From NCBI GenBank assembly GCA_947484245.1, contig CANKOT010000051.1, forward strand, positions 1 to 15,906: a stretch of 15,906 nt of DNA, given 5' to 3'. Source of the stretch: Comamonadaceae bacterium (GTDB lineage: Bacteria; Pseudomonadota; Gammaproteobacteria; Burkholderiales; Burkholderiaceae). Below, one piece after another: positions 1-7,847 of this stretch (positions are counted from its first letter, which is position 1; the number at the start of each line of letters is the position of its first letter). Made by a program: the position numbers and the translations under genes. The notes under the pieces were generated by a model. That model was not told where the DNA came from. It saw nothing but the letters and a program-made list of their open reading frames with translations, and made no database searches.

Positions 1-497
1 GAACCGCTGTCGCCCATCACCAAGGACCGATCAAATCCTCTGGCAGGCGGTAAGTTGTGCGGCTCTTTGCCGACATGCCATTTGCCGGCGACATAGGTTC
101 TGTAGCCGCTGTCTTGTAGCAAGCTTGATACCGTGACAACACGTTGGTTGAGCACACTCAAGTACCCAGCGCGGCCCACATGCGATTGAGGAATGGTTTC
201 CCGCATGTTGCCCACACCATTCAGGTGATTGTCGACCCCAGTGAGCAGCATGGAGCGGGTAGGAGAGCAGGATGCGCTCACATGAAAATTGGAAAAGCGC
301 GTCCCTGATTTTGCCAATTGGTTCAGGTTGGGCGTTTGAATTTCACTGCCAAAAGCGCCCACATCACTGAAGCCCCAATCGTCGGCCAATATCAGAACGA
401 TGTTGGGTCGTTTGGCCTCGGCTTGCGGGGAGAAGATGAAAAAAAGGGCTGCCAGCGCAACAGACCAGATTGGGTAGGAATTGCGAAAGTCTGTCAT
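1..497 (-). CDS. Secreted sulfatase (arylsulfatase AtsA-like), 5' part only
   Basis: The reading frame is open from the ATG at 497 to the left edge (165 codons), so the C-terminal part is missing. It would hydrolyse sulfate esters. Residues 1-28 form a Sec-type signal peptide with a hydrophobic core and an A-E-A end, so the enzyme should be periplasmic or secreted. Mature sequence begins with PNIVLILADDWG, where D39-D40 are metal ligands of the sulfatase fold. C77-S-P-T-R81 is the C-x-P-x-R motif whose cysteine becomes formylglycine, followed by SMLLTG. G138-K-W-H141 supplies the expected active-site Lys and His. The family and cysteine type are clear; the substrate is not. The start lies 2 bp after the stop of the upstream isomerase-like gene, so the two are probably co-transcribed and translationally coupled. 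An FGE that could activate it is encoded at 5065-6123. Confidence 0.93.
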   Translation of the reverse strand, partial: MTDFRNSYPIWSVALAALFFIFSPQAEAKRPNIVLILADDWGFSDVGAFGSEIQTPNLNQLAKSGTRFSNFHVSASCSPTRSMLLTGVDNHLNGVGNMRETIPQSHVGRAGYLSVLNQRVVTVSSLLQDSGYRTYVAGKWHVGKEPHNLPPARGFDRSLVMGDSG

Positions 498-499
498 GG

Positions 500-1678
500 T
501 CAATCGTTAGGGAAAGCGCCAAATTGCGCCCTTAAAGCATCCTCAATGACCCAGAATCTGTCTTGACCCCAGGCCGATGTATTTTCGTAGCGAAAAGATG
601 GCACACCCCACAAGCCAAGAGCAAAAAGGGCCTGTCTGTTTTCTTCAGCGATCGAGCGCCAGTGAGCTTCATTGGATTGGCTTCGCAGGATGTCTTTGGC
701 TGCTGTCCAGTTTAAACCTGCGCGCTCCACGATGATTTTTAAATGCGAATCAAGCCCAGCATCGAGCCCTTCAGACCAAACTCCCTGCATAAAGGACATT
801 ACATAGTCCTCTGCTAAATTGTGCATTTCTGCAAACGGCATCAAGGCTAACCCACGTTCTGTGGGTTTCCCAACAGGATCATTCAGGCGTCCAAAAGGCA
901 CGCCTTGAACGTGAGCTTCACGTGCCGCATCTAGGCTGATGTACTTGCGCTTCTCTGCAGGGACGGGCAAGCCCCTCATGACCATCGGCAACACATACCT
1001 GAGCTTGATATTGACGCCTGCTTTATGAGCCCAGTGGAAAATTCTTGCTGCTGCAATGGCTGAGTAGGGGCTTCTGAAAGAGAAGAAAAAATCAATGCTT
1101 GTATTTTGAGGAGTGACCTGACAGTTGGCATATTGCGAAGCAGAGAAAAGGTGGGTGTTGACGTTTGTTTGGCCTAGACCCAAATCGTTCAGCCTATCTT
1201 CTAAGTGATGTAGGCGGTCAATGCCCCAATACCATTCGCCTTCGTAATAAAGCGTGGCGCCAAGATAGTGGCCCCACTTTTTTCGAAGTGCGTTTGATTT
1301 TCTTGCTGCATCTGAATTTGGCAGTTCACTGGGCTGTACAAATTGCCAATCCACCTGAAACCGGTTGGCCAATCGTTGGGCATCCAATAGGCTATAGGCT
1401 TTCAGCATGGCTCGCTCAGGCACTGCTGAATCCTCAGGAGCATCAACAAGATGGGTCTCTAAAATGATGTTGTAGCGAGATTGCAGAACGGGTAGAGCCT
1501 TTGTCAGCAACTGTGAATAAGGGTCGTCGAGTTGGTGAAAAAAATGGATGACGTGCGGCCGCTTGGCTTCTTGTCTTTTTTTCTCTGCTTTGTGTCTCAG
1601 TTTGAGAAGACGGGATCGGGATAAAAAAAGTTGACTGATGACAGGCATCAGCCAACTTTGAGGGGACCTAAAAAACAT
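500..1678 (-). CDS. Double-module DsbA/HCCA-isomerase-like protein
   Basis: This 392-residue protein belongs to the thioredoxin-fold DsbA/2-hydroxychromene-2-carboxylate (HCCA) isomerase group. It seems to contain two related modules. Module 1 (about 41-165) has D52-P-Y-S55 near its start and W151-G-x-D-R155 near its end. Module 2 (about 195-385) has S203-P-Y-S206, a G358-V-P cis-proline loop and W370-G-x-D-R374. No CxxC is present, so thiol oxidase activity is unlikely; family members act on aromatic or glutathione-linked substrates, but the reaction here is unknown. Typical single-module HCCA isomerases are about 200 residues, so length fits a duplication. Residues 18-40 are basic and there is no signal peptide, suggesting a cytoplasmic location. 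No strong Shine-Dalgarno precedes the ATG at 1678, and a terminator-like hairpin overlaps codons 7-18, so the start is somewhat uncertain. Confidence 0.8.
   Translation of the reverse strand: MFFRSPQSWLMPVISQLFLSRSRLLKLRHKAEKKRQEAKRPHVIHFFHQLDDPYSQLLTKALPVLQSRYNIILETHLVDAPEDSAVPERAMLKAYSLLDAQRLANRFQVDWQFVQPSELPNSDAARKSNALRKKWGHYLGATLYYEGEWYWGIDRLHHLEDRLNDLGLGQTNVNTHLFSASQYANCQVTPQNTSIDFFFSFRSPYSAIAAARIFHWAHKAGVNIKLRYVLPMVMRGLPVPAEKRKYISLDAAREAHVQGVPFGRLNDPVGKPTERGLALMPFAEMHNLAEDYVMSFMQGVWSEGLDAGLDSHLKIIVERAGLNWTAAKDILRSQSNEAHWRSIAEENRQALFALGLWGVPSFRYENTSAWGQDRFWVIEDALRAQFGAFPND
1623..1659 (-). terminator. Intrinsic terminator/attenuator hairpin inside a 5' coding region
   Basis: Read on the minus strand, AAAGTTGGCTGATG pairs with CATCAGTCAACTTT across a CCTGT loop. 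All 14 positions pair in RNA, one of them as G-U; on the plus strand that position would be an A-C mismatch. The stem runs straight into seven Ts (1629-1623), three of them in the stem, as in a Rho-independent terminator. It lies about 70 nt past the stop of the outer-membrane channel gene but inside codons 7-18 of the next gene. It may limit read-through from the channel gene into the isomerase-like and sulfatase genes. Confidence 0.7.
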
Positions 1679-1729
1679 GATGCGAAATCAATCTGCCTGG
1701 GTTAAATTGAAATCGCAAAATCGATCAAG

Positions 1730-2911
1730 TTAGAAAGCTTTGATCAATCGAAGTTGGTAGCTTTTCACATTGATAGCGTTTTTGCCTTGGTAATTGTTGT
1801 TTATCTGAAAATTTAACCCGGCATTTTGTCCTGGTATTTTGTACGAGACGAAGGGACCTGCGCCTAATGTTTTGTATCGTCCATTAATCGTTTTCGTTAT
1901 GTCTGTCCCTGAGTACGAGTCATCTGTGACTTGTTGTGTAGAGAACACATTCATACCAACTGCCCAATCACCACTGACCTTCACGATGGCGGCTTCAGAA
2001 TAAATGAAGTTACCACTCTTGTATTTGGTATCTTTATTTTCTGTATTCATGCCATAAGCGACGCGTCCTGCAATGGTGACGCCAGCATCCCAATCTTGAT
2101 GAGATTGGTTTGGATTTAGGTTGTAAGTGAACGCCACACCTGGTCGAATGGTGTAGAAATCGCCGAAGCCAGGGTTCGCTTGTAAAGCAGCGTCTCTTGC
2201 CAAGGAATATTTGCCTGTAGGAACATACAACGAGACGCCAGCTGCCACTTTCAATCTGTCAGTGTGTCGAATCCAAACTGCTGAGAGTTCTGTGTCACCA
2301 ATACCGGAAATGTCGTCACTGGCTTTTGCGGATGCATTCGCTGCTGCGGTTGCCACTCCCCCGTTGATGGCAGTGGGAATGATGACATTGAAATTATTTA
2401 CAGCTGGTATGGGCGATGAAAAAGTTGCACTTGGGTAAGTGATGAGCGCTGTTCTGCTTTGTTTGACGATGGGTAAGTTGACAACGAAGGCAATACGGCC
2501 ATCGGCATATTTGCCTTCTGTGAGATAACCGCCCGCCAGATTCAATTGAGTTTGATCTTGTTTTAATGAGACAGCGCCATCAGCGACAGATACTTTTATC
2601 GCATTCAAGGCGGCAAAAGCAGGGTTAACAGACCCTAGAGGTGTGTTCGAATAGGGCGATGCTCTTGTTAAAGGAGCGCCTGTTGGTCCTTTGATGCCCT
2701 CAATGGTAATTTGTGACAAACTGGCCGTTCCAAAGAAGCCTGGCTTATCTGCTGGAGTTGCAATATCACCTCCAAAACTGCCTAAGGGTGCCTGTCTTAG
2801 CTTGTAGTTCTCAGCCGCATGCGCATTCATGCTACAAGCAATAAAAACACCCCACGACAAAGTTGAAATGACAATCGAACTGCGATTTTTGTTATGTTTA
2901 GGCTTATGCAT
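1730..2911 (-). CDS. SphA-type outer-membrane channel (phenol MetA-pathway family)
   Basis: This is a 393-residue predicted outer-membrane beta-barrel resembling the SphA / putative phenol-degradation MetA-pathway transporter family, often encoded beside catabolic genes for hydrophobic or aromatic compounds. The ATG at 2911 was preferred over an upstream in-frame ATG at 2962 because AGGAG lies 5 nt before it and because the longer form would run through the promoter/operator. Residues 1-32 form a signal peptide ending in A-H-A before AENY. The rest is rich in alternating polar/hydrophobic stretches with many Gly, Asn and aromatic residues, and the chain ends in Phe, a common barrel-insertion signal. 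It is the first gene of the leftward set (channel, isomerase-like, sulfatase) and is divergent from a TetR regulator. The substrate cannot be read from sequence. Confidence 0.75.
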   Translation of the reverse strand: MHKPKHNKNRSSIVISTLSWGVFIACSMNAHAAENYKLRQAPLGSFGGDIATPADKPGFFGTASLSQITIEGIKGPTGAPLTRASPYSNTPLGSVNPAFAALNAIKVSVADGAVSLKQDQTQLNLAGGYLTEGKYADGRIAFVVNLPIVKQSRTALITYPSATFSSPIPAVNNFNVIIPTAINGGVATAAANASAKASDDISGIGDTELSAVWIRHTDRLKVAAGVSLYVPTGKYSLARDAALQANPGFGDFYTIRPGVAFTYNLNPNQSHQDWDAGVTIAGRVAYGMNTENKDTKYKSGNFIYSEAAIVKVSGDWAVGMNVFSTQQVTDDSYSGTDITKTINGRYKTLGAGPFVSYKIPGQNAGLNFQINNNYQGKNAINVKSYQLRLIKAF

Positions 2912-2927
2912 ATGGTCTCCTGTTGCT

Positions 2928-2957
2928 GTTTTAGTCAATACATGTGTGTATTGACAA
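2928..2957 (-). promoter_or_regulatory. Likely promoter of the outer-membrane channel gene
   Basis: On the minus strand TTGTCA (2957-2952, 5 of 6 matches to the -35 consensus) is followed after 18 bp by TAAAAC (2933-2928, 4 of 6 matches to the -10). The 5' leader would be short, about 10-15 nt, but still includes the AGGAG ribosome-binding site before the ATG at 2911. The spacer is filled by the inverted repeat at 2934-2955. Confidence 0.45.
2934..2955. promoter_or_regulatory. Probable TetR-family operator (22-bp inverted repeat)
   Basis: GTCAATACA and TGTATTGAC are perfect 9-bp inverted arms separated by TGTG. The site lies between the divergent regulator and channel genes, overlaps the spacer of the leftward promoter and the TTGACA of a possible rightward promoter. 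Size and position are typical of TetR-family operators, so binding would repress the channel gene and perhaps the regulator itself. Binding by the adjacent regulator is inferred. Confidence 0.7.
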
Positions 2958-2979
2958 ATCACTCTAGCACAGCAAAGAT
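2951..2979 (+). promoter_or_regulatory. Possible promoter of the TetR regulator gene
   Basis: A perfect -35 hexamer, TTGACA, lies at 2951-2956. The best -10 at 17 bp spacing is AAAGAT (2974-2979), matching only 3 of 6 positions. The -35 overlaps the right arm of the inverted repeat, which would give autoregulation if used. Confidence 0.3.
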
Positions 2980-3033
2980 CAATGCATGTCTAGGGTTTTC
3001 GCTAGCGAGTGCAAATTTAGGAGGCGAACAGAC

Positions 3034-3054
3034 ATGCTTCAAAATAGGGCATGA
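3034..3054 (+). CDS. Possible six-codon leader ORF upstream of the TetR gene
   Basis: AGGAGG (3019-3024) lies 9 nt before an ATG at 3034 that opens a six-codon frame (MLQNRA) ending in TGA at 3052-3054. The stop overlaps the ATG at 3051 of the regulator as ATGA. This strong Shine-Dalgarno suits the small ORF better than either candidate regulator start. It could couple translation of the regulator to a leader peptide, or it may be chance; there is no independent proof of translation. Confidence 0.25.
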   Translation: MLQNRA

Positions 3055-3680
3055 CACGCATGGACACATCACATCAAAATCAACAGGCCAAATCGATGGC
3101 ACCTGAGGCCTCTCGGTTAACGCGTGACAATTGGCTGGACGAGGCCTTCAAGGCGGTGGTGGCAGGCGGCTTTGAGAATGTCAAAGTTCTGGCCATTGCA
3201 GAAAAGCTCAAGGTTACGCGGGGCAGTTTTTACTGGCACTTTACCGATCACGCTGACTTGATTGGCAGTTTGCTCATGCGCTGGAAATTGGCGCAGCTCG
3301 AACTGGACGAAAAATTGAAAGCGCATCAAAGCGACAATCCGATCCAAGATTTGGAATTTGTGGTGGATGCCGCTTTCAATCAAGCAGGCTCAGAGCTTGA
3401 GAATCTTCGCTTTGAACAGGCCTTGCGGGCCTTGAGTCATTTGCACAAAGGTGCTGCGCAAATGTTGGTCGAAGTGGACGCAGAGCGCATCAATTTATTT
3501 GAATCCAAATTTTTGACCATTGTCAAAGACAAAGCCAAGGCGCGTGATTTGGCCGCGTTACTTTACTTGGCCATTGTGGGGGGCTACCAGGCTTTAAGTC
3601 GTCCTGTGAACCCTCCCAACATCAGGCCGTATGTGCAAGGTTTGATTTCAAATTATTTGGTTTTGAAACAAGTGACTTGA
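3051..3680 (+). CDS. TetR-family transcriptional regulator
   Basis: The protein (209 residues; 206 if it starts at the ATG at 3060) has an N-terminal TetR DNA-binding domain at about 24-70. The helix-turn-helix is around 45-64, with LAIAEKLKVTRGSFYWHF, where G-S-F-Y-W-H-F is the family hallmark at the end of the recognition helix. The C-terminal two thirds is helical and would form the ligand-binding and dimer domain. Divergent orientation and the inverted repeat at 2934-2955 point to control of the outer-membrane channel gene and, through it, the isomerase-like and sulfatase genes. The ligand is unknown. The gene ends 5 bp from the stop of the convergent DUF1254 gene, leaving no room for a separate terminator. 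Start choice is open: AGGG at about 3046 serves the 3060 start, while the 3051 start overlaps the leader ORF. Confidence 0.9.
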   Translation: MTRMDTSHQNQQAKSMAPEASRLTRDNWLDEAFKAVVAGGFENVKVLAIAEKLKVTRGSFYWHFTDHADLIGSLLMRWKLAQLELDEKLKAHQSDNPIQDLEFVVDAAFNQAGSELENLRFEQALRALSHLHKGAAQMLVEVDAERINLFESKFLTIVKDKAKARDLAALLYLAIVGGYQALSRPVNPPNIRPYVQGLISNYLVLKQVT

Positions 3681-3685
3681 GTGAC

Positions 3686-5068
3686 TCAATTCAGTCGCTC
3701 CACCACGGGCATTTTCCATGGCCCGTTCAATGCCCTGTCTTCTGGCCAATACAAACGTGCATTGAGTAAAAACGGTCTGCCCTTTTGAACGGGTAGCCAA
3801 TTGGCATGGACTTCTTTGGAATCGGGTGGCGTAGCTTGTATCCAAATGTCCAATGAGCCATCTGCATTGAATACCAATGGATCTCTGTCACCCAGAGCAA
3901 ATCGTTGAATAGGGTTGTCTATTAAAAACTCATCTGCACCATATGCTGTGATGGACCAAAATGCTTTGACGGGTGGCAAAGCGTTGGCAGCAAAATGCAT
4001 GCGATATCGATGCTGGCCATTCAGAGGTTTGCCTTCATGGTCTAGTGCGGTGTTGGGGTAGATAGCGTCTTCTGGCAAGTTGGCCCCAAGCCCTACCATG
4101 GCCACTGCGGCACGCGTGTTGTAGTCGGTGCCATAACGCCCTAAATTCAGCGGCGGTACCGACCAGCTGCCATCAATGGCTTTGTTGTTCAAAGCCTTCA
4201 TGACGCGCTGGCGGGCTATCCATCGACCTAAGGCAAAACTCAAATGCTGGTGCCATTTCAGCGCCACTGCTTGGCCAGGCCGAATTTCAAGTAGTGCCAG
4301 TCGTGCAAGCATTGGTGCATCTTCTGGGGCCGCTGGGTTACTCACCATCAGTTGCATGAGTCGATTGAAAAATTCAAGGGTGCTCATTGCGCTTATCTGT
4401 GCAACGGGCGGTAAGGCTGGCTCAGTGCTGGCTTGCCAAGCTGGTGGGGCAAGTTTTTCAGAATCCGTGCCGACGGATGCTAAGCCGGTAGGGGTATTCC
4501 ATTTTGTGAGCCTCAGGCGATTTTGCAATTCATGCACCGTCGCATAATCAGCTGTACCGTTGGTTTGCGTTCTGCCAATCAGCCAAACCATGTCGGTGGT
4601 CGATTTGAGGAGCGTCATGTCCTTGGGCACGGTGCCTTGCCATTGCGGGCCGGCTAGCAAATAAGTTGCCCCCTGATTGCCTGAAGTTCTGCTACCGGGC
4701 GATGCAACCACATTGGTCCATGCATCCATGAAGGGCATCAACTCATATCGCTTGTCGTTGGCGGGCATTTCAAAAACCCACGGACCATCTATCATGCTAA
4801 TGAATGCCGTGGTGTATAGCGTGTCGACATTCGGGCGCACCACATCTTTGAATTGGGCGTTTGGAAATTGCCTGACCAAGCGCAACTGATTTTCCGGGCC
4901 GATGTATTTCGCGCTTTGAACCCGCGTAGTTTCCATCATGACCAAGGGGTAGCCATACAAAAAAGCCTCAGCGCCCAGCGCGATCTTGTCTTTCAAGACA
5001 AGCACCAAGCCTGCTACCAAGGCCAGCAAAACCAAAACCGCAATGAGTGCGCGTTTGATGATCTTCAT
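3686..5068 (-). CDS. Membrane-anchored DUF1254/DUF1214 protein
   Basis: This 460-residue protein has the DUF1254 domain in its N-terminal half, with hallmark stretches FLYGYPLVMMETTR, RPNVDTLYTTAF and RYELMPFMDAW. It has DUF1214 in its C-terminal part, with FWSITAYGADEFLIDN and WPEDRALNGPWKMP. Residues 5-26 are one long hydrophobic segment after basic residues, so the bulk should face the periplasm as an anchored or secreted domain. The family is widespread but its biochemical role is not established, and I assign none. The start codon overlaps the stop of the FGE gene as ATGA, so the two are translationally coupled. The pairing suggests a shared job in the periplasm or envelope, but this is inference. 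Confidence 0.88.
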   Translation of the reverse strand: MKIIKRALIAVLVLLALVAGLVLVLKDKIALGAEAFLYGYPLVMMETTRVQSAKYIGPENQLRLVRQFPNAQFKDVVRPNVDTLYTTAFISMIDGPWVFEMPANDKRYELMPFMDAWTNVVASPGSRTSGNQGATYLLAGPQWQGTVPKDMTLLKSTTDMVWLIGRTQTNGTADYATVHELQNRLRLTKWNTPTGLASVGTDSEKLAPPAWQASTEPALPPVAQISAMSTLEFFNRLMQLMVSNPAAPEDAPMLARLALLEIRPGQAVALKWHQHLSFALGRWIARQRVMKALNNKAIDGSWSVPPLNLGRYGTDYNTRAAVAMVGLGANLPEDAIYPNTALDHEGKPLNGQHRYRMHFAANALPPVKAFWSITAYGADEFLIDNPIQRFALGDRDPLVFNADGSLDIWIQATPPDSKEVHANWLPVQKGRPFLLNARLYWPEDRALNGPWKMPVVERLN

Positions 5069-6123
5069 GGCTGATAGATTGTTCTAAACCCCAAATGGCT
5101 CACCGCCAAATCGTCTTCTTGGGGTTGCCTAGACCCAGCGCGATATCGCATGCAGTAATTTGGGGCGCACAAAAATGAGCCGCCCTTGATCACGCGAACC
5201 TTGGGCTGAGAATTGGCTTGAAGTTTTTTGAAAATGGGCGGTCGCTGTGCTTCATCGGGATCAAGTCCTTGGTTGGCACTTGAGCCTTGGCTGCTGGAAA
5301 CTGCGGGCCTGTCTGCCACAAAGACATCGGCAGTGAGCTCCCACACATTGCCAACCATGTCGAACAGGCCATAGGCATTGGGTGCGTAGCAAGCCACCGG
5401 TGCCAAGCCTGCAAAACCATCTTCGCTGGCATTGGCCATGGGGAAAATACCTTGCCATGTGTTGGCGCTGGCGGGTTGATCGTGTTGGCCTGGTAATTCC
5501 TTGGCGCCAGCCCGAGCGGCCCATTCCCACTCAGCTTCCGTTGGTAAGCGATGGCCCTTCCATTGGGCATAGGCTTGAGCATCTTCGTAGGTGATGTGCA
5601 CCACTGGAAATTGGCCAAAGTTGTCGATGCTGGAATGGGGTCCTGCTGGTTGCCGCCAGTTAGCGCCTGGAATGTATTGCCACCACTGGCGCGGATCATC
5701 GCCATGAGTGAGCTGGGCGGGCACCTTGAAGACCACGGCGCCCGGCTTGCGCATGTCTTCTGGCAAGGTGGCGATCAACTGAGGGCTGACAGGACGCTCG
5801 GCCACGGTGACATAGCCTGTGGCTTTCACAAAGGCTGCAAACTCTGAATTGGTGACTTCCGTGCGGTCCATCCAAAAACCTTTGACGCGCACATTTCGAA
5901 CAGGTTTTTCTTCGGCATAAACCGTGTCGCCCATGTCGAAAGTGCCATCGGGAATCCAAACCATGCCAGGCTTTGGGGCAGCGGCTAAAGAGGGCGGTAG
6001 CTCGCATTGCAATTTGGCGGGTAGCGCTTGTTTGGAGGATGGCTCATCTTTTGAGAACCAGAAGGCGGCAAGGGCCAGAACCAACAGGGCTGAACCAGCA
6101 AGAAACCATTGGCTTAATTTCAT
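5065..6123 (-). CDS. Formylglycine-generating enzyme (SUMF1 family), membrane-anchored
   Basis: The 352-residue product matches the aerobic, copper-dependent formylglycine-generating enzymes that convert the Cys of C-x-P-x-R sulfatase motifs to formylglycine. After the N-terminus come MVWIPDGTFDMGD (54-66), EVTNSEFAAFVKATGY (89-104), GANWRQPAGP (153-162), RLPTEAEWEWAARAG (192-206), SEDGFAGLAPV (233-243) and GLFDMVGNVWELTAD (252-266). GGSFLC319-x4-C324-MRYR holds the two catalytic copper-binding cysteines in the spacing of human FGE. Many FGE-like domains lack these, so this one is probably an active maturase. Residues 6-23 are a hydrophobic export or anchor segment, giving a periplasmic location that is unlike characterised cytosolic bacterial FGEs. 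It starts 17 bp after ftsY and overlaps the DUF1254 gene, consistent with one operon. The sulfatase at 1-497 is the obvious substrate candidate. Confidence 0.9.
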   Translation of the reverse strand: MKLSQWFLAGSALLVLALAAFWFSKDEPSSKQALPAKLQCELPPSLAAAPKPGMVWIPDGTFDMGDTVYAEEKPVRNVRVKGFWMDRTEVTNSEFAAFVKATGYVTVAERPVSPQLIATLPEDMRKPGAVVFKVPAQLTHGDDPRQWWQYIPGANWRQPAGPHSSIDNFGQFPVVHITYEDAQAYAQWKGHRLPTEAEWEWAARAGAKELPGQHDQPASANTWQGIFPMANASEDGFAGLAPVACYAPNAYGLFDMVGNVWELTADVFVADRPAVSSSQGSSANQGLDPDEAQRPPIFKKLQANSQPKVRVIKGGSFLCAPNYCMRYRAGSRQPQEDDLAVSHLGFRTIYQP

Positions 6124-6140
6124 GATGGCTTTCAGTGGGC

Positions 6141-7166
6141 TCAGTTGAGCAAGGCTTCAGCAAACTCACGCGCATCGAAAGTTTGCAGATCATCCAGTTG
6201 TTCGCCAACACCAATGAAATAAACAGGAATGGTTTTTTCGCGCGCAATGGCGCACAGCACGCCCCCTTTGGCAGTGCCGTCCAGTTTGGTCACGATCAGT
6301 CCGGTTAAGCCCAAGGCTTCGTCGAAAGCTTTCACTTGCATCAAGGCGTTTTGTCCAGTGTTACCGTCAATGACCAGCAGGACTTCGTGGGGCGCAGTTG
6401 CATCCGCTTTCTGCACAACGCGTTTGATTTTTTTCAGCTCTTCCATGAGGTGCAGTTGGGTGGGCAAGCGGCCCGCTGTATCGACCAACACCACATCTCT
6501 GCCGCGAGCTTTGCCTGCAGACACTGCATCAAAGCTGACCGCTGCGGGATCGCCACCTTGTTGGCTGATGATTTCAACGGTATTGCGCTGCGCCCAGACA
6601 GCCAGTTGTTCGCGGGCTGCAGCTCTGAAGGTATCGGCCGCTGCCAACAACACACTGGCCCCTTGGTCTGCCAAGTGGTGCGTGAGTTTGCCAATGGAGG
6701 TTGTTTTGCCCGCTCCGTTGACACCTGCCACCATCAAGACCATTGGCTTTTGAGAACCAATGTGAAGCTGCTTTTGCAGTGGCATGAGCAGGTCTGTAAT
6801 GACCTCTATGAGCAAAGCTTTGACTGCTGCAGGGTCTGTGGCTTTGGTGGCTTTGACGCGAGACTTAAGGTCTTGCAGCAGGTGTTCTGTGGCTTTGACG
6901 CCTGTATCGGCCAGCAACAAGGCCGTTTCAAGCTCTTCGTAAAGCGCATCATCGATTTGCGTGCCAGTGAAGACGGATGCAATGCTGCCGCCCGTTTTGC
7001 GCAAGCCCGCTTTGAGTTTGCTGAGCCAAGACTGCCGAGGAGCCTCAGAAGACTCGGATTGGCTAGCCGCTGTGCTGGGTGCCATCGGCTTTGCTGAGGG
7101 GCTGACCAAAGGGGTCTTGTCCTGAGCTGGTTCTGGTTTGGGGGATGAGCGAAAAAATCGGAACAT
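6141..7166 (-). CDS. ftsY: Signal recognition particle receptor FtsY
   Basis: FtsY is the membrane-associated GTPase that docks the Ffh/4.5S RNA complex and delivers nascent membrane proteins to SecYEG. The 341-residue form starting at 7166 was chosen because the in-frame extension upstream crosses the divergent rsmD gene and a good promoter. The N-terminal acidic region is short (about 45 residues) and Pro/Ser-rich, much shorter than in E. coli. The helical N domain follows (about 46-135), then the GTPase G domain with GVNGAGKTTS (148-157), DTFRAAAREQL (178-188), VDTAGR (228-233), TKLDGTAKGG (293-302) and GVGEQLDDLQTF near the end. It is divergent from rsmD, as is common in proteobacteria. 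The FGE and DUF1254 genes follow closely and are probably transcribed with it. Confidence 0.97.
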   Translation of the reverse strand: MFRFFRSSPKPEPAQDKTPLVSPSAKPMAPSTAASQSESSEAPRQSWLSKLKAGLRKTGGSIASVFTGTQIDDALYEELETALLLADTGVKATEHLLQDLKSRVKATKATDPAAVKALLIEVITDLLMPLQKQLHIGSQKPMVLMVAGVNGAGKTTSIGKLTHHLADQGASVLLAAADTFRAAAREQLAVWAQRNTVEIISQQGGDPAAVSFDAVSAGKARGRDVVLVDTAGRLPTQLHLMEELKKIKRVVQKADATAPHEVLLVIDGNTGQNALMQVKAFDEALGLTGLIVTKLDGTAKGGVLCAIAREKTIPVYFIGVGEQLDDLQTFDAREFAEALLN

Positions 7167-7188
7167 ATTGGGCGGTCTGTAAGGGCCT

Positions 7189-7216
7189 ATTCTATGAAAA
7201 CTTAGGGCAAGCTCAA
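7189..7216 (-). promoter_or_regulatory. Likely ftsY promoter
   Basis: On the minus strand TTGAGC (7216-7211, 4 of 6) and TAGAAT (7194-7189, 5 of 6) are separated by 16 bp. The -10 lies 22 bp before the ftsY ATG at 7166. The same 81-bp gap must also hold any promoter for rsmD, but I could not find a convincing one reading rightward. Confidence 0.45.
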
Positions 7217-7247
7217 AATCGCCTGACAACGCGGTAAGCTTCAGGCC

Positions 7248-7847
7248 ATGCCTACTAAACCCATCAGTAAAGTTGCTATCGGCGCACCTTCGCACGAAGT
7301 GCGCATCATTGGTGGCCAATGGAAGCGCAGCAAAATCAAAGTGATCGATCGGCCTGGCCTTCGGCCCACGCCCGACAGAGTGCGCGAAACATTGTTCAAT
7401 TGGTTGGGCCAAGACCTCAACGGTTGGCGTTGTGTCGATGCATTTGCGGGCACGGGTGCCTTGGGCTTTGAGGCTGCTTCGCGGGGCGCGCAAAGTGTCA
7501 TGATGTTGGAGCAAGACTCTCAATTGGTCTCTCTGCTAAGTCAAACGAGCGAGCGTTTGAAAGCGCACACCGTTCAAGTTCAAAAGGGCGACGCCATGAT
7601 GGCGCTTCAGCGCTTAGCGCCGAGCAGCCTCGATGTGGTTTTTTTGGACCCGCCCTTTGAGGGCTCGCATTTTGAAAATGCCTTGAAGGCTGCTGCCAAA
7701 GCTGTTGTGCCTGGCGGGTGGGTGTACTTAGAAGCCCCCATCCATTGGACAGACGAGGCCATTCAAGCTTGTGGACTACAAGCCCAAAAGTACATGAAAG
7801 CTGGCGCCGTTCATGCGCATTTGCTGCAACGACCAATCGAGGGATAA
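7248..7847 (+). CDS. rsmD: 16S rRNA (guanine-966 N2)-methyltransferase RsmD
   Basis: The 199-residue protein is a SAM-dependent methyltransferase that modifies G966 of 16S rRNA during 30S assembly. The opening EVRIIGGQWKRSKI (17-30) and RPTPDRVRETLFNWL (39-53) are typical of RsmD. SAM-binding motif I is DAFAGTGALGFEAASRG (64-80), and the catalytic DPPF motif is at 134-137. Length is normal for the family. No strong Shine-Dalgarno precedes the ATG. It is divergent from ftsY and is followed 26 bp later by coaD, an arrangement seen in many proteobacteria; the two are likely one transcript. Confidence 0.95.
   Translation: MPTKPISKVAIGAPSHEVRIIGGQWKRSKIKVIDRPGLRPTPDRVRETLFNWLGQDLNGWRCVDAFAGTGALGFEAASRGAQSVMMLEQDSQLVSLLSQTSERLKAHTVQVQKGDAMMALQRLAPSSLDVVFLDPPFEGSHFENALKAAAKAVVPGGWVYLEAPIHWTDEAIQACGLQAQKYMKAGAVHAHLLQRPIEG

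Follow-up and report, generated by a model that had tools for sequence, protein, structure and literature searches.

The stretch of DNA analyzed here (the window, 15,906 nt of contig CANKOT010000051.1, assembly GCA_947484245.1) comes from a freshwater bacterium of the Comamonadaceae and encodes a formylglycine-generating enzyme (FGE) together with the N-terminal part of a sulfatase. We propose, with a probability of roughly 0.8, that this FGE is a membrane-tethered periplasmic enzyme that converts its neighboring Sec-exported, single-cysteine sulfatase, and that it contains a disulfide between C40 and C245. Export of both the FGE and the sulfatase is well supported by comparison with relatives; the topology of the FGE, its disulfide, its copper loading and its catalysis in the periplasm we infer. 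The exported layout is not special to the window: it marks a whole clade of FGEs and also a second, mostly lipoprotein-type group in Bacteroidota and others. Genome-wide statements rest on relatives, chiefly on G001, the genome holding the closest relative of the window (L001).

In the proposed mechanism, the N-terminal segment would set the FGE in the inner membrane so that the catalytic domain lies on the periplasmic side. Copper would be held on C319 and C324, as known FGE chemistry suggests, and the enzyme, together with O2, would turn the cysteine of the CSPTR motif into formylglycine while the sulfatase, still unfolded, comes out of Sec. A C40-C245 disulfide, to which the co-occurrence of the two residues points, would staple the N-terminal linker to the FGE domain.

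Export signals of the FGE and the neighboring sulfatase

The window FGE matches PF03781 (E 4e-72, 243 bits against a cut-off of 23.3, profile positions 2-254 of 255) and agrees with the fold of solved FGEs. Its cysteines are C40, C245, C319 and C324, the latter two of which align with the human pair C336/C341 (GGSFLCAPNYCMRYR over GGSYMCHRSYCYRYR) and are invariant in a 68-row alignment. A cytosolic FGE would lack an export signal; here the N-terminus carries a hydrophobic segment with a 15-residue hydropathy score of 2.44, modeled by AlphaFold2 as a single helix (residues 2-23). A sequence-only reading of this DNA had named a hydrophobic segment at residues 6-23 and the retention of C319 and C324, and both are confirmed by hydropathy, the AlphaFold2 helix and the human alignment. 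A fourth cysteine, C245, goes beyond that reading; relatives have it together with C40.

The sulfatase open reading frame (3-503, minus strand; likely ATG at 497, TTG at 503) is cut by the window edge. The fragment matches PF00884 (E 4e-26, profile positions 1-118 of 301) and presents the C-x-P-x-R nucleophile motif as CSPTR. Its hydrophobic N-terminus scores 2.03 and ends in SPQAEA followed by KRPN, between which we place the likely cleavage point by eye. Both the signal peptide and the motif that had been claimed for the sulfatase are therefore found. What had not been brought out is that the larger share of the protein lies outside the window: a full-length orthologue in L001 (15618-17447) is 89% identical, orthologous frames in L001, L005, L006, L007 and L010 run to 592-610 aa, and the fragment covers only part of the catalytic domain.

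A CSPTR sulfatase lies downstream of the FGE in 22 of 27 close relatives (L001-L027), and in the other five (L002, L003, L004, L016, L018) the contig stops before the sulfatase position; the two genes therefore belong together. This bears on whether the exported protein could instead be another periplasmic FGE-fold protein, comparable to PvdO, OCTIN or PorK/GldK, and no sulfatase activator. Exported proteins of that kind exist, as bacterial OCTIN, which has the FGE fold and lacks the catalytic cysteines, is described with signal sequences in the accessible part of PMC5915273. Moreover, all NCBIfam matches of the window FGE fall in other families of the FGE fold (GldK, EgtB, SenA, PvdO and others), every one of them below its cut-off (121 of 350 bits for GldK, 90 of 360 for EgtB, 75 of 500 for PvdO). 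However, both catalytic cysteines are kept, true FGEs give the best sequence matches in the PDB, and a sulfatase with a convertible cysteine stands nearby in those 22 loci, all of which makes such an identity quite improbable.

It is also conceivable that the start codon is misplaced and that the true start lies downstream, excluding the segment. TTG codons are present further in (e.g., at residue 38), and a strong ribosome-binding site before the ATG was not seen by eye. Yet the ATG is kept in five close relatives whose upstream DNA differs, and although each of them differs from the window FGE by 11 to 14 amino acids in codons 1-24, the segment is still hydrophobic in all five (scores 1.97 to 2.32). 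Because hydrophobicity and ATG are kept while the sequence and the upstream DNA change, the segment is likely more than chance. With a hydrophobic segment in 59 other members of the clade as well, a misplaced start has very little in its favor.

Export was called by a hydropathy rule, the highest mean over 15 residues ahead of the domain counting as hydrophobic at 1.5 or above and as without a segment below 1.1. Applied to 129 distinct FGE frames (80 genome contig loci, 48 places in Pseudomonadota and the window), it gave 89 hydrophobic, 33 without and 7 between; L062 and L071, counted among the 33, fall among lipoprotein types in the tree and score 2.32 and 1.17 in a wider search. The tree of 128 FGE domains (a quick search with no mixture model) places the window in a clade of 60 exported Pseudomonadota rows (SH-aLRT 95) and also holds a cytosolic clade of 31 rows (29 cytosolic by the rule, 2 in between; SH-aLRT 96), with the long-branch cytosolic rows L196 and L197 outside the latter. 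A third group of 35 rows, weakly supported (91), is mostly exported, Bacteroidota-like and mostly lipoprotein. Export state changes at least four times on this tree. Every member of the window's clade (60/60) has a hydrophobic N-terminal segment by the rule: 42 end in Trp, Phe or Tyr like an anchor, 13 carry a lipobox (L184 doubtfully) and 5 are of other types.

The Pseudomonadota sample covered 299 genomes and listed 49 places, of which 48 were fetched, the remaining one being L042's own genome. Fourteen of these belong to the exported clade, 3 are otherwise exported, 29 lie within the cytosolic clade or adjacent to it, and 2 are unplaced. The resulting share of exported FGEs, 17/48, was obtained with the window FGE as query, which favors its own clade. 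Of 60 genomes sampled in G001's genus, 20 contain a match to the window FGE at E 1e-25. In two controls, L203 from Streptomyces anulatus and L204 from Deinococcus deserti, the FGE is without a hydrophobic N-terminus, and the neighboring sulfatases are likewise without a signal; L205 (Nonomuraea), unannotated and with an unclear start, was left out as a control.

Cysteines of the FGE and of its presumed substrates

Of the Pseudomonadota FGEs, 60 of the 64 exported ones and none of the 30 cytosolic ones have a cysteine at position 245 (Fisher p 1.4e-20), and all 60 FGEs having it also have an N-terminal cysteine within 25 residues before the domain. The four exported FGEs without C245 are a truncated frame of L032, counted within the 64, and three members of the third group (L171, L180, L187); L191, L199 and another piece of L032, whose domain starts are unreadable, were not counted. 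A second sample of 385 and 369 genomes, kept outside the tree, yielded 33 new FGEs with the active-site pair, not counting four skipped frames and 11 that repeated earlier loci. Seventeen of these are exported with both cysteines, 5 are exported with neither, and 11 are cytosolic without C245, 2 of them with an N-terminal cysteine. Across both samples, complete exported Pseudomonadota FGEs have both cysteines in 77 cases, neither in 8 and one only in 0, and C245 occurs in 0 of 41 cytosolic FGEs.

C40 and C245 are kept throughout the exported clade, whose members range down to about 43% identity to the window FGE, and because both positions persist in so diverse a clade we favor their pairing. 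A structural disulfide in an oxidizing compartment is the simplest and most likely reading of this pattern. C40 had previously been suggested to form a functional thiol, a suggestion to which human FGE lends some plausibility, as its N-terminal C50 and C52 are tied to retention in the available portion of PMC4505483. The lack of any complete exported FGE with just one of the two cysteines speaks against this, and the C40 region is modeled as coil (predicted local distance difference test, pLDDT, 82-85); a free C40 is unlikely. The residue after GFR is a further cysteine in 31 of 33 cytosolic-class FGEs and is replaced in the exported clade, by Thr in the window. Among 63 readable exported Pseudomonadota FGEs it is found in L171 only, which lies outside the clade. 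Exported FGEs of other phyla have cysteines at 264 (24/25) and 348 (23/25).

We read 129 sulfatases with a cysteine motif, leaving out 21 profile matches without a readable one. Fifty-six lie no more than 3 kb from an exported-clade FGE; each of them begins with a hydrophobic N-terminus, and the rule classes none of the 56 as strict and 5 as loose twin-arginine translocation (Tat) types. Beside third-group FGEs, 22/22 are of Sec/anchor type. For the 25 beside cytosolic-clade FGEs, the rule gives 6 strict Tat, 1 loose Tat, 11 Sec/anchor and 7 with no segment. The notion that a cytosolic FGE means a Tat sulfatase holds only partly, for the 7 of these 25 that are Tat by the rule. Sulfatases that look Tat-like by eye were kept in their rule class, which is no segment for L175 and Sec/anchor for L165, L182 (all three beside cytosolic-clade FGEs) and L161.

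Cysteines were counted from 52 residues before the nucleophile on, as a comparison among sulfatases and not with exported proteins generally, and four open-ended frames were left out, 3 of them adjoining exported-clade FGEs and 1 an FGE of the third group. Exactly one cysteine, the one to be converted, is found in 51/53 sulfatases beside exported-clade FGEs, 5/25 beside cytosolic and 7/21 beside third-group FGEs. The exceptions in the exported clade, L161 and L200, have three cysteines each; two of the 53 frames are split-gene pieces in L011, without which the count is 49/51. In the largest family of sulfatases, linked at 35% identity, single-cysteine proteins make up 23/23, 3/7 and 6/12 of those beside exported-clade, cytosolic and third-group FGEs, respectively, and within the second family 22/23, 1/3 and 0/1. 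When exported sulfatases only are considered, 5/18 beside cytosolic FGEs have a single cysteine. A single cysteine fits a target that has to stay reduced among disulfide-forming enzymes: because the mature sulfatases have no other cysteine, an oxidizing periplasm could not lock the target thiol into a disulfide inside the protein, which would explain the pattern. Taken together, the signals, the cysteine pattern, the conserved neighborhood and the single-cysteine substrates lend support to the earlier suggestion that modification takes place after Sec export.

Two Brevundimonas/Caulobacteraceae loci contain two FGEs each (L030, 3834-7375 and 9752-10876; L031, 4086-7444 and 9830-10942). A cytosolic-by-rule FGE stands beside a Tat-type sulfatase (DRRSLLIG) and is accompanied by an exported lipoprotein-type FGE, so that these loci offer a natural test of compartment matching.

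Counter-evidence and gene neighborhood

A number of observations weigh against a periplasmic, disulfide-bearing FGE. FGE turnover in an oxidizing periplasm would call for a source of reductant. C245 changes once on the tree of 128 FGE domains; its association with export is therefore one event, whose strength the Fisher p exaggerates, and an independent-pairs test on the tree has 1 usable pair only. The exported FGEs lacking both cysteines partly belong to another group. An N-terminal cysteine without C245 occurs in six of the 30 cytosolic Pseudomonadota FGEs, and the Streptomyces FGE of L203 has N-terminal cysteines at 3 and 4, with Ser at the place of C245 (in L204, no cysteine is listed near that place, which was not aligned). 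The frames in L018, L040 and L060 are without a start codon within 35 residues upstream of the segment. On the substrate side, the 11 Sec-type sulfatases adjoining cytosolic-clade FGEs mean that a Sec sulfatase needs no exported FGE. The only sulfatase read at L028, 4.7 kb from an exported-clade FGE, is without a signal, and the three-cysteine sulfatase of L161, also beside an exported-clade FGE, has a Tat-like SRREFS by eye that the rule missed.

Some of this would suit a segment that holds the FGE at the membrane with the domain on the cytoplasmic side, the sulfatase being modified before export. The charge bias around the segment is weak, as Lys plus Arg before and after it differ little (2.08 vs 1.40). 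In addition, cytosolic-looking Cys sulfatases are present in G001 (L112, 1141-2517, CVPTR) and G006 (L110, 1408-2814, CSPTR), so that the idea that an exported FGE implies that all sulfatases are exported is not borne out; the sole intact FGE found in these genomes is of the exported type. PF03781 matches three genes in G001, where the Cys pair is kept only in the exported FGE and is lacking in a 277-residue frame without the FGE Cys-pair motif (L090) and in an EgtB-like protein (L254), and one gene in G006. A maturase for the L112 and L110 sulfatases was not found in G001 or G006, as neither yielded a cytosolic Cys-pair FGE or a match to anSME, the cytosolic radical SAM sulfatase maturase, above cut-off. 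Across six searched genomes anSME had no match in 4, including G001, and weak matches below cut-off in 2. A paper on the choline sulfatase of Ensifer (Sinorhizobium) meliloti (PMC6189696) is reportedly titled as a characterization of the unmodified enzyme. Nevertheless, a lipobox takes the place of the anchor in 13/60 clade members and would put the domain outside, and a cytoplasm-facing domain is at odds with the extra Cys pair, the loss of the GFR cysteine and the single-cysteine substrates. We thus regard this orientation as unlikely and retain the periplasmic one.

The features of the window are collected in the table below. In minus-strand order the genes are ftsY (the signal recognition particle receptor), the FGE, the DUF1254/1214, Phenol_MetA_deg-family and DSBA-domain genes and the sulfatase, with the TetR gene on the plus strand before Phenol_MetA_deg; four genes separate FGE and sulfatase. 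The end of ftsY and the start of the FGE (window 5065-7523) are 17 bases apart. The TetR gene lies between FGE and sulfatase in 21 of the 22 loci with both, the other being L011, which has no TetR match and a split sulfatase frame. A DUF1254 neighbor follows the FGE in 11/27 relatives. No copper or thiol-redox partner gene was recognized beside the FGE in a by-eye look through the recurring neighbors, a list without annotation.

Features of the window discussed in the text, with positions counted from its first nucleotide
Feature	Position	Strand	Basis
N-terminal part of Cys-type S1 sulfatase, proposed substrate; rest past window edge	3..497	-	Open reading frame, PF00884, L001 orthologue
Sec-type signal peptide of sulfatase (MTDFRNSYPIWSVALAALFFIFSPQAEA)	414..497	-	15-mer score, AxA-type end from sequence
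CSPTR motif, Cys for conversion to formylglycine	255..269	-	Sequence
DSBA-domain (PF01323) protein, kept in neighborhood; signal peptide not seen by eye	500..1678	-	Profile match
Phenol_MetA_deg family (PF13557) protein, kept in neighborhood	1730..2962	-	Profile match
TetR-type regulator of conserved neighborhood	3051..3680	+	Profile match
DUF1254/DUF1214 protein, itself bearing a hydrophobic segment at the N-terminus; ATGA overlap of its start with the FGE stop	3686..5068	-	Open reading frame, profile
FGE, 352 aa, probably exported and membrane-tethered	5065..6123	-	
Hydrophobic segment of FGE (residues 6-23), probably an N-in signal anchor; aromatic end, FWF	6055..6108	-	Hydropathy, AlphaFold2 model, relatives
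FGE C40, proposed disulfide partner of C245	6004..6006	-	Co-occurrence
FGE C245, proposed disulfide partner of C40	5389..5391	-	Co-occurrence
FGE C319 to C324, copper-binding pair at ends	5152..5169	-	Human alignment, invariance in 68-row alignment

Directly upstream of an exported-clade FGE, 14 loci (L007, L008, L010, L011, L013, L015, L016, L017, L019, L020, L021, L022, L024, L026) have a membrane-segment sulfatase with CTVSR or CTISR for C-x-P-x-R. Of these 14 sulfatases, 13 or 14 (one gap) retain the Asp, Asn, Arg, Lys and His positions that do not vary among 11 Pro-type relatives. The CTVSR sulfatase sits between ftsY and the FGE in L007, L008 and L010; because the FGE follows ftsY directly in the window, unlike in those loci, the window's line may have lost it. 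Other non-proline motifs near FGEs (L179, 5897-7876; L184, 5850-7844; L057, 5554-7338) are CAITR in two cases and CSVTR in one. SulfAtlas, as far as the text of PMC5066984 is accessible, gives Pro at this place in 87%, Ala next and others at <1% each. Tolerance at the proline site is opposed by human IDS, in which Pro to Leu at this place is recorded as pathogenic in the part of PMC10185571 consulted.

Comparison with known systems

The accessible part of PMC4505483 locates prokaryotic FGE in the cytosol and has FGE turnover require copper, oxygen and a reductant. Nothing on the location of bacterial FGE was found in the available portions of PMC10154612, PMC11500405, PMC8746622, PMC6388578, PMC9723792 and PMC6923384. 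We recognized no description of an exported, catalytically intact bacterial FGE in the open-access literature, a scope that leaves out most subscription journals, so that a prior mention is possible.

Our results raise a broader possibility, that many Gram-negatives have a periplasmic formylglycine pathway with a disulfide-stapled, tethered FGE clade, single-cysteine Sec sulfatases and tolerance of Val or Ile for Pro (CT[VI]SR), while the cytosolic, the Tat-exported and part of the Sec-exported sulfatases fall to cytosolic FGEs. This generalization is tentative, and we would put it slightly short of an even bet. If a sizeable share of Pseudomonadota FGEs is periplasmic, the eukaryotic arrangement gains a bacterial parallel. 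Copper supply would presumably be easier to explain, sulfatase sets could be matched to their proper activators, aldehyde tagging in the E. coli periplasm would become thinkable, and the origin of the thiol reductant in an oxidizing compartment would become testable.

Among related proteins, anSME yields the same formylglycine product, and PvdO, OCTIN and PorK/GldK have the FGE fold. PvdO and PorK, both represented by structures, are exported as well, and to our knowledge neither is a sulfatase activator. The exported FGEs of Bacteroidota, Planctomycetota and others (L047-L080) resemble the window FGE in the active-site pair, the export signal and the sulfatases nearby. They differ in forming a separate, weakly supported tree group, in often having a lipobox and in carrying cysteines at 264/348 instead of 40/245, and the sulfatases of this type of group contain more cysteines (7/21 with a single one). 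The aerobic FGEs of Thermomonospora curvata and Streptomyces coelicolor (PDB 6s07, 5nyy, 2q17) would be cytosolic by what PMC4505483 states for prokaryotes; in contrast, the window FGE has an N-terminal anchor, the C40/C245 pair and Thr for the GFR cysteine.

Compared with human FGE (SUMF1, PDB 1y1e, 5ssz), the window FGE would be tethered in or on the membrane. The human disulfides, C218-C365 and C235-C346 in the same partial source (PMC4505483), correspond in our alignment to A186/T348 and A203/A329 of the window FGE, and 0/64 exported Pseudomonadota FGEs have cysteines at both 186 and 348 or at both 203 and 329. The sequence-only reading had likened this layout to the eukaryotic secretory pathway. 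Because the human disulfide pairs are not shared, the likeness stands as a functional analogy only.

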